Of a stretch of 35,510 nucleotides of DNA, positions 5,007 through 13,340 are shown in pieces. Below the pieces are notes generated by a model, which saw only the letters and a program-made list of their open reading frames with translations, was not told the DNA's origin and searched no databases. The translations under genes were made by a program, and so were the position numbers. This stretch comes from an uncultured Candidatus Saccharibacteria bacterium (GTDB taxonomy: Bacteria; Patescibacteriota; Saccharimonadia; Saccharimonadales; Saccharimonadaceae). Each line of letters starts with the position of its first letter. Positions within the stretch are counted from its first letter, which is position 1. The stretch is from positions 1 to 35,510 of the forward strand of contig CAMZEB010000009.1 in assembly GCA_947305705.1 (NCBI GenBank), given 5' to 3'.

Positions 5007-5594
5007 ATGGAATATTGTTTACAGCATTATGGAATCTTAGGCCAAAAGTGGGGAGTACGACGCTACCAGAACGAGGACGGAAGCTTAACTCCTGCTGGAA
5101 AGAAGAGATATTCTAATGGTGATCTTGCTTATAAAGATTTTAAAAAAGCCATTAGACGCCAAAGAGGAGAAAAGCTTGGCCAATCAAATAGATGGATGTC
5201 TGGACATGGAATAGGTGAAAAATCAGATCGTCTTTTTCAAGAAGCAGATAAGAAAAGGCAGGAGTATGAAAATTCCCATCAGTATAAGCAATGGTTAAAG
5301 AAATATGACAATTATTATAAGGTTTCCGAGAGAAAATTGCAAAATGGTCAAATAACTGTAGAAGAATTTGACCGAGGCGGGGATGAGATATGGAAGCAAC
5401 GCCCAAAGAAAAATTTTAACGATCCAAGAGAAGCGGTTTATGTTGTTGGAAAAGGATATGTCAATAATTATATTGAACGAGGCGGAAAAGATCTATCTAT
5501 AGCTTATATCGAAGATATCGGGTTCAACAAAGAGACAGCAGAAAAAATAGTTGAGTCGATTATAAAACGTAATAAGACCTTAGGTGGAGTCTAA
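5007..5594 (+). CDS. KWG-tag protein 2, charged helical body
   Basis: A 195-residue soluble, strongly basic protein. Residues about 5-35 are the shared tag (HYGILGQKWGVRRYQNEDGS, then LTPAGKKRYS). The body is helical and rich in Lys, Arg, Tyr and Gln, with no hydrophobic segment. It ends in a helix-turn-helix-like block (YIEDIGFNKETAEKIVESII) at about 167-187. The sequence GAGGAAAATCAAAATGGAATATT across its start is identical to that of the gene at 7384, so homology between these paralogues begins before the start codon. No enzyme motif is seen. It lies 16 bases before the large terminase gene. Cargo or packaging-accessory roles are both possible. Confidence 0.65.
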   Translation: MEYCLQHYGILGQKWGVRRYQNEDGSLTPAGKKRYSNGDLAYKDFKKAIRRQRGEKLGQSNRWMSGHGIGEKSDRLFQEADKKRQEYENSHQYKQWLKKYDNYYKVSERKLQNGQITVEEFDRGGDEIWKQRPKKNFNDPREAVYVVGKGYVNNYIERGGKDLSIAYIEDIGFNKETAEKIVESIIKRNKTLGGV

Positions 5595-7383: not shown

Positions 7384-7941
7384 ATGGAATATTATTTACA
7401 GCACCATGGAATTAAAGGCCAAAAGTGGGGAGTACGACGTTACCAGAATGAGGACGGGACTTTAACTGAGGCCGGAAAGAAGAGATACGGTTTTTGGGAC
7501 CGTCGAAAACATGGGCGAGAGATATCAAGAGATTACAACAAAGCATATTACGATACTTTAGAGAAACTTCAATCTGAATCTAAAGAGTATCAGGAAGCAT
7601 CCAGGAAACAGAATAAAATCGCAGACCGATATGGTCTTGATGAAGATGGTAGACCCACTAAAAAGCTTGATGAGGCGACCGGGCTTGATTCGCTTGCAGA
7701 TGCATGGGATCAGCGCCAGGCGGCTAAACGCTATAAAGAGCAAGAGGATATTATTCTTGATCTAAATGAGGATTTTTATAAAAAAGCAGAAGCGTATGCC
7801 GAAAAAACTGTAATATCTAAATACGGAGATACTGCATTATCCGATATGAACCGATATAGAGGGCAAAATGCAGCCGCATTAGTCACAGCAATATTACTTG
7901 CCGGAGGAACAATGCTGATTGCAAATTCCATTAATAGGTAG
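7384..7941 (+). CDS. KWG-tag protein 3, C-terminal membrane segment
   Basis: A 185-residue protein preceded by GGGAGGAAAA. The tag occupies residues about 5-35 (HHGIKGQKWGVRRYQNEDGT, then LTEAGKKRYG). The middle 120 residues are helical and charged. Residues about 160-180 (AALVTAILLAGGTMLIANSI) form one hydrophobic segment right at the C terminus, as in tail-anchored proteins. A 34-base stretch in the tag (7444-7477) is identical to 8949-8982 in tag protein 5, suggesting recent exchange or duplication of the tag region. The body has no recognisable domain. The tag family is clear; function is unknown. Confidence 0.65.
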   Translation: MEYYLQHHGIKGQKWGVRRYQNEDGTLTEAGKKRYGFWDRRKHGREISRDYNKAYYDTLEKLQSESKEYQEASRKQNKIADRYGLDEDGRPTKKLDEATGLDSLADAWDQRQAAKRYKEQEDIILDLNEDFYKKAEAYAEKTVISKYGDTALSDMNRYRGQNAAALVTAILLAGGTMLIANSINR

Positions 7942-7950
7942 GAGTAAATG

Positions 7951-8838
7951 ATGGAACTCTATTTACAGCATCATGGCATTTTTGGCCAAAAGTGGGGAAA
8001 AAGACATGGCCCTCCATATCCACTCGGTGGCGGTAAATATTTTAAAGAATACAGAAAGAAGCTTAAAAGAAAAGAGCGTAAAGATAATAGCTTATACAAC
8101 AAAAAACATTATGATAAGACTATTACTAAAGGAACCGTTCTATCGACATTAAGCTACGACAAAGATCGCACAAAAGATGTCGATATGTTTTATGCGGCGT
8201 ACAAGCCGTTAGATAAACATCAGTACAATGCTCTTTTTAATAAAAAAGTTCAGCAGGATGTATATGACGAAAATGGAAATCGAATTGGCCATGACACATT
8301 TTATAAGTTTCGTATAAATAATGTGGCTAACAAGGATATTAAAGTTGCTAGCGAAGATTCAGGAGCTGATACATTTAAGGAGCTTTGGTCTAAAGATAGA
8401 GACTTTTATAACTTTGTTATAGACCCGTCAAGAATGCAAAGTCATTTTGTTGACAGTAAGTATCGTTTTAAAGGCTATAGAGAAGCTCGATCTGCTCTTG
8501 AAAAAATGAGGAACGATAACTATGTGCCAACAGAAAAAGAAGTGCATACAATTTATAGAATGTTTAATTATGTAATACCATCCGATGGCGGCGGAAACGC
8601 AAGAATGGCGAAAGATGTAGCAACACAAAGAGCAAAGCTTTTTAAGGCACTGAACAATAAAGGGTATGGCGCAATGCTGGACACTAATGACGCTATATAT
8701 GGTGGGTTTAAAGCCACTGCCCCAGTAATAGTATTTGATATGTCCTCCATAGTTTTGCAAGATGCTAATAGAGTTACAACAAAATCAAAAAGATTTTCAA
8801 ATGCTGCTTTTCTTGGGCGTAAGGTTCTTGGAATTTGA
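7951..8838 (+). CDS. KWG-tag protein 4, enzyme-like body, possibly ART-fold
   Basis: A 295-residue protein. ATG 7951 is preferred over ATG 7948 for SD spacing and for alignment with MEYYLQHHGI. The tag is shortened: HHGIFGQKWG, then KRHGPPYPL instead of VRRYQNEDG. The body begins at about 50 with TITKGTVLSTLSYDKDRTK and later DMFYAAY, and ends with NKGYGAMLDTNDAIYGGF and APVIVFD (about 232-262). A 'KGT' strand early and a 'GY.A..D.ND...PVIVF' ending is reminiscent of ADP-ribosyltransferase-fold proteins encoded beside phage heads. The ExE motif is not evident, so activity is doubtful. It is the best candidate for an effector among the six. The family assignment is tentative. Confidence 0.55.
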   Translation: MELYLQHHGIFGQKWGKRHGPPYPLGGGKYFKEYRKKLKRKERKDNSLYNKKHYDKTITKGTVLSTLSYDKDRTKDVDMFYAAYKPLDKHQYNALFNKKVQQDVYDENGNRIGHDTFYKFRINNVANKDIKVASEDSGADTFKELWSKDRDFYNFVIDPSRMQSHFVDSKYRFKGYREARSALEKMRNDNYVPTEKEVHTIYRMFNYVIPSDGGGNARMAKDVATQRAKLFKALNNKGYGAMLDTNDAIYGGFKATAPVIVFDMSSIVLQDANRVTTKSKRFSNAAFLGRKVLGI

Positions 8839-8873: not shown

Positions 8874-9539
8874 GTGCCTATAGTATATTCTCAAGATTAT
8901 TTGGTCCACTATGGTATTAAAGGTCAAAAGTGGGGAGTACGCCGTTATCAGAATGAGGACGGGACTTTAACTGAGGCCGGAAGAAAACGTTATGGAGTGG
9001 ACTTAGACATTAATGATAAGAGCCGCACAAACATTGCAAGGATTAGAAAAGGCGAAGCTTATCGCCGGCTTGACTATGCTATGAAAAATAATCCTACAAA
9101 TACATATAGAATCGGTCAATTACAAGCTAATGTCCGAAATGCGGAAAGAAGTGAAAAGCTAGCAAAACGAATTGATAGGGGTTCTATCCTGGCAGCAAGG
9201 GGTGATACGATTACTAGAAATAAGCAAAAAAAACTTATGGCATATGGAGCCAGCGTTGTTGCTTCAATGGCTACTACGGCTATTTTAGCCAAGGGAATCG
9301 GCAATCTTATGAGCACCGGTCAATATACTGCCGGCCATTTGGCGACTGCTCAGATTTTTAATAAATATGCCAATGCTGCTTTTACCGCCGCATTTGTTGG
9401 ATACGCAATTAAGAAGAACGCTGATAATGCGGCTCTAAGAGCTTATAATGCTTCCAAATATAATGGAACCGGTACTATTAAAAACATTGGTGGGCAGGAG
9501 TATAAGGATGTCGTCGATAGAAGAAAGCGGGAGGGATAA
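8874..9539 (+). CDS. KWG-tag protein 5, two hydrophobic segments
   Basis: A 221-residue protein with a GTG start at 8874 after GGTGAGG. A short extra N terminus (MPIVYSQDYL) precedes the tag at about 11-41 (VHYGIKGQKWGVRRYQNEDG, then TLTEAGRKRYG). A basic helical region (about 45-120) follows. Residues about 123-146 (AYGASVVASMATTAILAKGI) and 153-178 (LATAQIFNKYANAAFTAAFV) are hydrophobic, then a basic tail. Tag plus hydrophobic pair resembles tag protein 1, although the bodies do not align by eye. A membrane-active virion cargo is a reasonable guess and no more than that. Confidence 0.65.
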   Translation: MPIVYSQDYLVHYGIKGQKWGVRRYQNEDGTLTEAGRKRYGVDLDINDKSRTNIARIRKGEAYRRLDYAMKNNPTNTYRIGQLQANVRNAERSEKLAKRIDRGSILAARGDTITRNKQKKLMAYGASVVASMATTAILAKGIGNLMSTGQYTAGHLATAQIFNKYANAAFTAAFVGYAIKKNADNAALRAYNASKYNGTGTIKNIGGQEYKDVVDRRKREG

Positions 9540-9541
9540 TA

Positions 9542-10240
9542 ATGTACGCGTATGATGAAAGTCAATTGATAGTTCATTATGGCATTAAAGGCCAAAAGTG
9601 GGGAGTAAGGCGCTGGCAAAATGAAGACGGAACATTTAATGAAGCCGGAAAAAGAAAATACTTTGGGCAAGGATACTATAATAGTAAATCTAATAGATGG
9701 AATAACAAAGCGGATAAAGCTCAACGTATGGCCGACATGAACCGACGGGCTTCGGAGACTGGCCCAAAAATTTTATCTGGAATCTATAAAAGCAACGAGC
9801 GATATTATCAAGCCGAAGCTGATAAATTTCGCAATAGATCTAATAGAGCAAAACAGAAGGCCAATGCAATCATTGCTAGGAATTCTAATAAAGAATTATC
9901 AAAAATTAGATACAATGAACAGATCAAAGAGGCGGTAAAGAAATACCAAGCGGCATATGATCGTGCAAGCGAGGCTTCCGATCGAGCAGACGCGATGGCC
10001 GACGCTGCAAGATTAATGCGGAAGGGTCTTGGTAAAAATAATTTAACTAGAACTATTAGAGCTGCTCGAAATAAGACTTCGGAAGCTAAGGCTTACAATA
10101 AAGCTATGGACGAGGCTACAGATGCTTTGGATCGCGCTGATGAATTATGGGTAGAGGCCAATAGACTCCGGAAGGACACTGGTAGAAATCGAATTTCTAG
10201 AACTATTAATAATATTAAATATGATTCAAATCGCCGTTAA
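9542..10240 (+). CDS. KWG-tag protein 6, basic helical repeats
   Basis: A 232-residue, very basic helical protein starting two bases after the previous stop. The tag lies at about 11-41 (VHYGIKGQKWGVRRWQNEDG, then TFNEAGKRKY). The rest is Lys/Arg/Ala/Asn-rich coiled helix without hydrophobic segments. The C-terminal part contains two related units of about 50 residues: DRASEASDRADAMADAARL with NLTRTIRAARNK, and DEATDALDRADELWVEANRL with RISRTINNIK. The same TCTAGAACTATTA word encodes the closing part of each unit. It is the kind of protein that could condense or coat DNA, like T4 internal proteins. The gene directly precedes the portal gene. Function is inferred. Confidence 0.65.
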   Translation: MYAYDESQLIVHYGIKGQKWGVRRWQNEDGTFNEAGKRKYFGQGYYNSKSNRWNNKADKAQRMADMNRRASETGPKILSGIYKSNERYYQAEADKFRNRSNRAKQKANAIIARNSNKELSKIRYNEQIKEAVKKYQAAYDRASEASDRADAMADAARLMRKGLGKNNLTRTIRAARNKTSEAKAYNKAMDEATDALDRADELWVEANRLRKDTGRNRISRTINNIKYDSNRR

Positions 10241-10252
10241 AAGGAGCTTATA

Positions 10253-11515
10253 ATGCCAACACTAATTGAGCGTTTCAAAAGCGGATGGGACGCTTTTATA
10301 AACAATAAAGACCCTACCTATTCGCAAGTGCAATACGGGTCTAGTAGCTATTATAGACCGGATAGAGCTCGTTTAACTCGCGGAAACGAACGATCGATAG
10401 TGACTGCTATTTACAATAAGATAGCAATCGACGTAGCGCAAGTTCGTATTCAGCATGTTATGGTTGACGAGAATGGACGATATGTAGAAACCATTGACTC
10501 CGACCTTAACTATGCCCTTTCCACAGAAGCAAATATTGACCAAACGGCCCGTTCTTTTATTCAGGATGCCGTCATGTCTATGTTTGATGAAGGGGTTGTC
10601 GCAATCGTTCCAGTTAGAACCGATGTCGATCCCACACTTGGGGGCGGATTTAAAATTGGCCAATTACGTACTGGTAAGATAGTTCAATGGTATCCGCAGC
10701 ATATTAGGGTTAGTCTTTATAACGATCAAAATGGAAGACGAGAAGAACTAATTTTCCCAAAGTCAATGTGTGCTATTATCGAGAATCCATTCTATTCTAT
10801 CATGAATGAACCAAACTCTACTCTACAGCGTCTTATTCGTAAGCTTGCATTACTCGATGGAATCGACGAACAAACTAGTTCTGGAAAATTAGATTTAATT
10901 ATTCAGTTACCGTATATAATTAAAACTGAAGCTCGTCGTCAGCAGGCCGAACTTAGACGGAAAGACATCGAAATGCAGTTATCTGGGTCTAAGTATGGTA
11001 TTGCTTATACTGATGGAACTGAGCGTATTACTCAGCTTAATAGACCTCTTGAGAATAACTTGCTTAAGCAGATAGAATACTTAACAAATGTGCTGTATAG
11101 CCAGCTCGGTTTTTCAGAAGAGATCCTTAAAGGAATAGCCGATGATAAAACTATGCTGAACTATAATAACCATATTATAGAGCCAATTCTATCTGCGTTT
11201 ATAGATGAAATGGGACGAAAGTTCTTAACTAAAAATGCAAGGACTAGAGGCCAACGGTTAATGTTCTTCCAAGATCCATTCAAGCTCATCCCAGTTACTA
11301 GTATTGCGGAGCTTTCTGATAAGCTTACTCGTAACGAGATAATGTCCTCGAATGAGGTTCGTTCGCTTCTTGGCTTAAAGCCTTCTAAGAATCCAAAGGC
11401 TGATGAGCTTAGAAATAAAAATATGCCAGATCAGAAGACGGGGCCTTCCGAGATTGTTCCATCTGATGATACGGCAGAAAATACTACAGAAGGAGAAATT
11501 CAAAATGGGACGTAA
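10253..11515 (+). CDS. Portal protein, HK97 type
   Basis: A 420-residue portal, forming the dodecameric ring at the head vertex through which DNA passes and to which the neck binds. It starts at ATG 10253 after AAAGGAG. Diagnostic features are the N-terminal RSIVTAIYNKIAIDVAQVRI region (about 46-65), KIVQWYPQHIRVSL, the long helical LIRKLALLDG stretch, the stem/clip part with EYLTNVLYSQLGFSEEILKG and DDKTMLNYNNHII, and the C-terminal TRNEIMSSNEVRSLLGLKPS motif typical of Phage_portal proteins. Length is normal. It overlaps the next gene by 11 bases, implying coupled translation of portal and protease-capsid. Confidence 0.93.
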   Translation: MPTLIERFKSGWDAFINNKDPTYSQVQYGSSSYYRPDRARLTRGNERSIVTAIYNKIAIDVAQVRIQHVMVDENGRYVETIDSDLNYALSTEANIDQTARSFIQDAVMSMFDEGVVAIVPVRTDVDPTLGGGFKIGQLRTGKIVQWYPQHIRVSLYNDQNGRREELIFPKSMCAIIENPFYSIMNEPNSTLQRLIRKLALLDGIDEQTSSGKLDLIIQLPYIIKTEARRQQAELRRKDIEMQLSGSKYGIAYTDGTERITQLNRPLENNLLKQIEYLTNVLYSQLGFSEEILKGIADDKTMLNYNNHIIEPILSAFIDEMGRKFLTKNARTRGQRLMFFQDPFKLIPVTSIAELSDKLTRNEIMSSNEVRSLLGLKPSKNPKADELRNKNMPDQKTGPSEIVPSDDTAENTTEGEIQNGT

Positions 11516-13340
11516 ATACGATTTTGGCGGTTATGCTACCAAGAACGATATTAGATGTTCCGATGGACGTACTATTCGTAGAGATGCTTTTAAGGAGCAG
11601 GATGGTGCAAAGGTGCCGCTGGTATGGCAGCATCTGCACGATGACCCGAGTAACGTGCTTGGACATGCCATTCTTGAAAATCGTAATGATGGCGTATATG
11701 CATACTGCACATTCAATAACTCCCCAAAAGGCACGACGACGAAGTCGTTAGTGGAACATGGTGATGTAGTAGCATTATCCATTTATGCCAATCAGCTTAA
11801 GCAGCAGGGCGGTAATGTGCTGCATGGATGCATTCGAGAAGTAAGCGTTGTTCTTGCTGGCGCTAATCCGGGGGCACTTATCGATACTCCAGTTTTAGAG
11901 CATGGCGATACATACGTAGAGCTGGAAGATGAGGCCACGATTTACACCGACTCGGCTATTGAACTTTATCATGCTGACAAGGATGATGAAGACGCTGATG
12001 AAACTAAAGAGAAGAAGGAAGAGGGTAATGAGCCCGCTCCTAATACTGTAAATAATAATTCCAATAAGGAGGAAAAAGAAATGAAGGAAAAGACCGTTAA
12101 GGATGTTTGGGAAACTTTAACTGAAGAGCAGAAGCAGGTCGTCTATTTCATGATTGGCCAGGCAGTTGAGGATGCTCAGGGAAATGATGATGACGATGAT
12201 GATGCTAAGCACTATGATTTTGGAGGCGATGCTATGAAGCACAATGTTTTTGACAACAGCATTGATACCAGTTTCACCCCTATCACCACTGAGGAGTTTA
12301 CTCAGATTATGAATGACGCCAAGCGGCTTGGCAGTATGTCTGATGCTGTTATGCAGCATATGGATGGCGGCGTATTGGCTCATGCCGACACTCAGCCTCA
12401 GTATGGCATTGAGAATATTGACTACCTGTTCCCCGAAGCCCGCACCCTTGGTGGAACTCCTACCTTTATTCGTAGAGATAACGGCTGGGTTACTAAGGTT
12501 ATGAACGGTGTTCATCGTAGTCCCTTCTCTCGGATTAAGTCGGTGTTTGCTAATATTTCCGAAGATGAGGCTCGGGCTAAGGGTTATATTAAGGGCAATA
12601 TGAAGCGCGATGAGGTGTTCACTCTGCTGAAGCGTACTACTTCCGCTACCACTGTGTATAAGAAGCAGAAGATGGATCGCGATGATGTTGTGGATATTAC
12701 CGATTTCGATGTGGTCGCATGGCTGAAGACCGAGATGCGCAGCATGCTGGATGAGGAGATCGCTCGCGCTATCCTGATTAGTGATGGCCGTAGTGCTTCT
12801 GATGATGATAAGATCAACGAGGTGAACATTCGTCCTATCTGGAAGGATGAGGATCTGTACACTATCAAGCAGGCGGTCACCGTTGCTGCTAACGCTGATG
12901 ATGACGATGTCGCCAAGGCTATGATTAAGGCCGCCGTCAAGGGCCGCAAGAACTATAAGGGCTCCGGCAATCCTACTTTATTCACCACTGAGGATGAGCT
13001 GACCAATATGCTGCTCCTGGAAGATAATCAGGGTCATCGGTTATATGATTCTCTGGAGAAGCTGGCTACTGCTATGCGTGTTCGCGAGATCGTGACCGTT
13101 CCTTCTATGGAGAATCAGACTCGCACTGATGCTGCCGGCACTACTCGTACTCTGCTGGGTATCATTGTCAATCTTGATGACTATAATGTTGGTGCGGACA
13201 AGGGCGGTGCCGTCAATATGTTCGACGACTTCGACATCGACTACAATCAGCAGAAGTACCTGATCGAGACTCGTTGCTCTGGCGCTCTTGTTAAGCCTTA
13301 CTCCGCTATTGCTCTGGAGAAGGTTGTTGGTAATAACTAA
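11505..13340 (+). CDS. Fused prohead protease and major capsid protein
   Basis: A 611-residue polyprotein. ATG 11505, after AGGAG, is chosen because the upstream frame lies inside the portal gene. Residues about 1-150 are an HK97-like (S78-type) protease: His43 in VWQHLHDDP and Ser92 in VVALSIYANQ. A Glu/Asp/Lys-rich linker (about 155-200) and a delta-like helix (KTVKDVWETLTEEQK) follow, then an Asp run and, from about 240, an HK97-fold capsid protein (TLGGTPTFIRRDNGW, RIKSVFANISEDEARAKG, C-terminal KYLIETRCSGALVKPYSAI). Codon use becomes strongly biased in the capsid part. An internal start at 12081 could yield capsid protein alone. The acidic YDFGGDAMKHNVF region is a plausible maturation site. 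Confidence 0.92.
   Translation: MGRKYDFGGYATKNDIRCSDGRTIRRDAFKEQDGAKVPLVWQHLHDDPSNVLGHAILENRNDGVYAYCTFNNSPKGTTTKSLVEHGDVVALSIYANQLKQQGGNVLHGCIREVSVVLAGANPGALIDTPVLEHGDTYVELEDEATIYTDSAIELYHADKDDEDADETKEKKEEGNEPAPNTVNNNSNKEEKEMKEKTVKDVWETLTEEQKQVVYFMIGQAVEDAQGNDDDDDDAKHYDFGGDAMKHNVFDNSIDTSFTPITTEEFTQIMNDAKRLGSMSDAVMQHMDGGVLAHADTQPQYGIENIDYLFPEARTLGGTPTFIRRDNGWVTKVMNGVHRSPFSRIKSVFANISEDEARAKGYIKGNMKRDEVFTLLKRTTSATTVYKKQKMDRDDVVDITDFDVVAWLKTEMRSMLDEEIARAILISDGRSASDDDKINEVNIRPIWKDEDLYTIKQAVTVAANADDDDVAKAMIKAAVKGRKNYKGSGNPTLFTTEDELTNMLLLEDNQGHRLYDSLEKLATAMRVREIVTVPSMENQTRTDAAGTTRTLLGIIVNLDDYNVGADKGGAVNMFDDFDIDYNQQKYLIETRCSGALVKPYSAIALEKVVGNN
12065..12083 (+). promoter_or_regulatory. Internal ribosome site and start for a free capsid protein
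   Basis: TAAGGAGG (12065-12072) is a near-perfect SD, eight bases before an in-frame ATG at 12081 inside the protease-capsid gene. Initiation there gives a 419-residue product beginning MKEKTVKDVWE, which is delta-region plus capsid without the protease. It sits exactly in the linker between the two domains. The signal is directly visible; its use is inferred. Confidence 0.75.

Follow-up and report, generated by a model that had tools for sequence, protein, structure and literature searches.

How can a phage assemble a head when its protease and its capsid protein are parts of the same polypeptide? The question is raised by a gene in a stretch of 35,510 nucleotides from an uncultured Candidatus Saccharibacteria bacterium (hereafter the window), in which a single open reading frame runs from a prohead protease through a linker into a capsid protein. 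With the protease fused one-to-one with each capsid subunit there is a problem both of packing and of stoichiometry, free capsid protein being required in hundreds of copies. A preliminary description of the sequence proposed that free capsid protein is generated from an internal start at codon 193. Our comparative analysis strongly supports a protease-free capsid protein initiated within the gene, but the start that is present in every relative is at Met244, while that at Met193 is secondary and variable.

The fusion matches the phrog_3270 profile from end to end (residues 3-608, E = 9.9e-222). Its N-terminal section matches Peptidase_S78 (PF04586) over residues 9-127 with 21.8 bits against a cut-off of 21, and TIGR01543 below the family cut-off, and is thus a prohead protease of the S78 type found among HK97-type head genes. 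The matches of the C-terminal section to Phage_capsid (PF05065) and TIGR01554 are weak, lying just under the cut-off, and a sequence search of the PDB returned no close solved relative. In an AlphaFold model built on an alignment of 64 sequences the protease occupies residues 1-118, and is followed by a disordered stretch (158-195), a helix module (198-224), further disorder (227-258), two helices (262-275 and 278-287) and, from about residue 315, the HK97-fold capsid part. Foldseek searches with this model found the capsids of HK97, GTA and SaPIbov5 together with other HK97-fold shells, confirming the fold. The borders of the domains agree with the positions of the internal starts (Table 1).

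Table 1. Features of the protease-capsid fusion gene, in window coordinates. SD, Shine-Dalgarno sequence.
Feature	Position	Strand	Basis or remark
Start of full-length fusion: SD AAGGAG and ATG (Met1 = 11505)	11490..11507	+	Sequence
Fusion gene: prohead protease, linker/helix module, delta-like helices, HK97-fold capsid	11505..13340	+	611 aa
Prohead protease domain, residues 1-118	11505..11858	+	PF04586, weak TIGR01543, AlphaFold high-confidence region
Site 2: SD TAAGGAGG 12065-12072, ATG 12081-12083 (Met193)	12065..12083	+	Exact sequence
Linker helix module, residues 198-224, VKDVWETLTEEQKQVVYFMIGQAVEDA; scaffold-like	12096..12176	+	AlphaFold helices
Site 3: SD GGAGG 12222-12226, ATG 12234-12236 (Met244, N-terminus MKHNVFD)	12222..12236	+	Conserved start
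Predicted separate capsid precursor, 368 aa	12234..13340	+	Weak PF05065/TIGR01554, pooled codon step at 244
Delta-like helices in Met244 product, residues 262-287	12288..12365	+	AlphaFold; L-x-H columns 262, 285
LAHAD, residues 291-295, ahead of the mature capsid arm: candidate site of cleavage by the protease	12375..12389	+	L-x-H enrichment

The preliminary description placed a strong SD sequence and a correctly spaced ATG in the linker between the two domains, and both statements are borne out. A spacing of 8 nt separates TAAGGAGG from the ATG of Met193, which is in frame with the fusion, and codon 193 falls within the disordered stretch between the protease and the helix module. The window contains four matches to the pattern AAGGAGG-N4-10-ATG where 0.45 would be expected, and the other three are the starts of separate open reading frames.

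How general are such internal starts? The fusion is present in 244 phage records, the majority from phages of Arthrobacter, Gordonia and Streptomyces, and it is also found in phages of Lactococcus, Rhodococcus, Curtobacterium and Microbacterium and in faecal phages. At 80% coverage the records containing a relative of the capsid part are as numerous as those containing the whole fusion (244 in each case), and a search of the phage collection for relatives in which protease and capsid are split gave none above distant Streptococcus capsids at 21% identity. Among the relatives of the host that were searched only two have a phage bearing a related gene. Two further fusions from genomes of the host genus contain both the Met193-type and the Met244 sites. 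The host bin (G000) is itself very small, with 884,992 bases in 18 contigs at about 99.5% completeness; the listed genomes of the genus range from 0.7 to 1.3 Mb.

Loci were collected from IMG/VR, genome contigs and 19 annotated phage regions. Nearly all have a single open fusion frame, the exceptions being cut at contig ends or having a short frame (L114, L131, L133). A set non-redundant at <90% identity comprised 113 representatives, extending from Clostridia to Lactococcus and actinobacterial phages; these are related, and the counts drawn from them are not independent events. All in-frame ATG, GTG and TTG codons were scored for SD pairing across the relatives, and the results compared with synonymous shuffles in which the protein and the codon usage were kept. 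Two of the seed peptides used in the search overlap the internal sites, and the test was rerun on the 92 representatives obtained without those peptides.

Of the 113 representatives, 59 have a site of the Met193 type, consisting of an SD of six or more bases and an in-frame start in the linker ahead of the helix module (22.6 in shuffles, maximum 32); of the 92, 49 have one (19.8, maximum 28). The full range for a comparable SD and start in the linker is 59-70 of the 113, compared with 22.6-41 in the shuffles. The site shifts in position among the relatives, and is missing in about half. Thus the conservation of the internal SD that the preliminary description had proposed to look for in relatives exists for the Met193 type in about half to 60% of them and fails in the rest, while for the Met244 type it extends to nearly all.

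The position identified by SD scoring as common to all the IMG/VR relatives is equivalent to codon 244 of the window gene, not 193. It lies 51 codons beyond Met193, and its SD and ATG (12222-12236) had gone unremarked in the preliminary description. The equivalent codon is an NTG start in all 113 representatives (ATG in 97, GTG in 14 and TTG in 2), and in 92/92 of the smaller set. GTG makes up about 14% of the valine codons of the fusion genes, yet where valine is encoded at 244 the codon is GTG in 14 out of 14 cases. An SD of at least five nucleotides precedes the start in 102 of the 113, against a mean of 45 and a maximum of 53 in shuffles; for the smaller set the corresponding figures are 82 of 92 against 34 (maximum 41). 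In about ten of the 113 the match is of only four bases. The codon frame in which the SD is read differs between relatives (GGA GGC, GAG GAG, AAG GAG or GAA GGA), so that it encodes Gly-Gly, Glu-Glu, Lys-Glu or Glu-Gly; it is therefore conserved as nucleotides. The combination holds in high-GC actinophages and in Lactococcus phages found by plain tblastn, and where the start is displaced by one or two codons in some actinophages an SD-like stretch and an NTG codon are retained. Met1-equivalent starts are likewise preceded by an SD in the relatives, while at other places in the gene pairs of SD (six or more bases) and start are depleted, with 19 observed against 46 in shuffles. Thus an internal start together with its SD is conserved beyond amino acid constraint, the signature of a gene with a nested in-frame start. 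On this comparison Met244 is probably the universally conserved start of the capsid protein, the product being a capsid with only short delta-like helices.

Codon usage also changes along the gene. The preliminary description stated that codon bias rises in the capsid part, and in the window gene alone there is indeed such a rise, although a shallow one, its change point falling at 193-209. When 91 low-GC relatives are pooled, with the segments 126-243 and 244-290 kept outside the training sets, the change moves to 244. Usage is protease-like up to 243 (-0.126 for 227-243) and capsid-like from 244 (+0.017 for 244-290), reaching +0.05 to +0.08 further into the capsid (+0.074 for 351-450). The strongest SD in the gene is that of Met193 (-12.2); a 16S gene, and with it the host's own anti-SD, was not detected in the host bin. 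Predicted RNA folding in the window gives no clear ranking of strength for the three starts except that the region of Met193 is the most open. That the region of Met244 is more paired than that of Met193, and that the codon step of the window alone is nearer to 193, are points against a capsid start at Met244, as is the single CDS given in public annotations. An alternative is that Met193 is the sole internal start: the gene would then yield the fusion plus one capsid form, beginning at Met193, with Met244 an ordinary codon. Its strong SD, its openness and the local change point all favor this, but it is improbable given the presence of a start codon at 244 in every relative and of an SD in nearly all, the shifting and frequent absence of the Met193-type site, and the codon step at 244 in the family as a whole. 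Met193 appears rather to be a secondary site of variable position, and its product would comprise the helix module and the capsid. Given the strength of its SD, the openness of its start region and the codon change point of the window at 193-209, it may nevertheless contribute notably in the window's own phage.

The linkers contain a further recurrent element. In the linker and delta regions of the 113 proteins there are 517 instances of the motif L-x-H with a small or polar residue after it, compared with 64 after shuffling, an 8-fold excess, with columns recurring at window positions 133, 156, 262 and 285/293 among others. It is also above expectation in the remainder of the protein (389 versus 112), and for this reason we regard it only as a candidate cleavage signal; the excess outside the linkers probably reflects conserved structural histidines. 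In two relatives (L054 and L067) the helix module, with consensus TVxDVFxxLTEEQKxVVYAMIGxAL, is duplicated, and in phage Qui (L141) there are at least three copies; the repeated modules are separated by L-x-H motifs.

The location of SD-like sequences at domain borders and the abundance of candidate cleavage motifs in the linkers could also suit a scheme in which these sequences are pause signals for co-translational folding, with just one full-length protein made and then cut. We consider this unlikely too, because pausing requires neither a correctly spaced ATG, GTG or TTG in 113 of 113 representatives nor exchange among exactly those three codons, and it leaves the step in codon usage unexplained. 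Least credible of all is that the region of 244 is conserved at the level of the protein, as a processing or recognition motif (MKHNVFD), with the SD a by-product of Gly/Glu/Lys-rich linkers: the motif [M/V/L][K/S]xNVF[D/E] is indeed conserved, and codons for E, K and G do give SD-like strings, but more than half of the SDs are lost in shuffles that keep the protein, GGAGG stays while the residues upstream vary, and valine at 244 is invariably GTG.

We conclude, with a probability of about 0.82, that the gene is a nested in-frame set encoding the fusion, a capsid precursor starting at Met244 and, in about half of the relatives, a form of the Met193 type. Initiation at Met1 would provide the protease-scaffold-capsid fusion at low copy, and this would enter the prohead through its capsid domain, carrying the protease along. 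Initiation at Met244 on the same mRNA would yield the bulk of the capsid precursor, which has short delta-like helices of its own. In the window's phage and roughly half of the relatives a start in the linker, here Met193, would add a capsid form that also bears the helix module. The protease would then trim every form to one mature capsid protein, probably at the L-x-H motifs. The synthesis of these products, their ratio and the sites of cleavage are what we infer from the sequences. Because trimming would leave the same subunit whichever form it began with, the start used could not be read from the N-termini in mature virions. A broader proposal, that there is a widespread class of head genes in which three nested co-terminal proteins (protease-scaffold-capsid, scaffold-capsid and capsid) have their stoichiometry set by three ribosome-binding sites and cleavage at repeated L-x-H sites resolves the polyprotein, has in our estimate an even chance of being correct.

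A second, distant family of protease-capsid fusions was also encountered (L155 and L157-L168), with 27% identity in the capsid. About 8 of the 13 members have an SD and start before a scaffold-like helix at about residue 203-232, which suggests that nested starts may be common in protease-capsid fusions. An SD and ATG at the capsid junction is confined to three members (L155, L157 and L158) and is not general, so by sequence comparison a start at that junction characterizes the family of the window gene and not the distant one. In Microbacterium phage Pondwater no more than a weak candidate start was seen. In L155 (1483-3393, minus strand) a strong SD (-12.1) and an in-frame TTG lie within the protease domain at residue 106, and are not found in relatives.

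Elsewhere in the window, five genes, positioned around the terminase and ahead of the portal (5007-5594, 7384-7941, 7948-8838, 8874-9539 and 9542-10240), share the short N-terminal motif DUF7211 of about 20 amino acids and are otherwise dissimilar, as if a common N-terminal tag had been placed on different small proteins.

Conserved internal starts would provide a simple answer to the packing and stoichiometry of a fused protease, and the gene concerned occurs in no fewer than 244 sequenced phages as well as several hundred that are uncultivated. In the openly accessible literature there are papers that name the fusion (e.g. the discussion of EpicDab, PMC9671378), and none describing an internal start for the family. 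All 19 annotated phage records examined show a single CDS with the internal starts unannotated, and the capsid start is probably missing from annotation throughout the family. The idea can be tested in cultured phages of Arthrobacter, Gordonia, Streptomyces or Lactococcus.

How does this arrangement compare with known systems? The phrog_3270 protease-capsid fusions belong to the same family from end to end, and in the 19 records examined are annotated as a single product without internal starts. HK97 gp4 (protease) and gp5 (capsid with a delta domain) share the S78-type protease, the HK97 fold and a short helical segment ahead of the mature arm, but in HK97 these are two separate genes. In herpesviruses UL26 and UL26.5 give the protease-scaffold and the scaffold from one frame. 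The result is similar, with few protease-bearing and many protease-free forms having a common C-terminus, yet the herpesviruses rely on a separate transcript for this, and what their two products have in common is the scaffold, not the capsid protein. In phage lambda the protease gene C contains the in-frame internal start for the scaffold Nu3, and the capsid protein is encoded by a separate gene. There too an internal start in one frame gives an abundant assembly partner without protease; the difference is that the nested product of lambda is a scaffold beside a separate capsid gene, whereas here it would be the capsid itself. Nested in-frame head genes of the lambda C/Nu3 type are thus known in kind, and by this analogy the gene studied here would extend the principle to the capsid protein.
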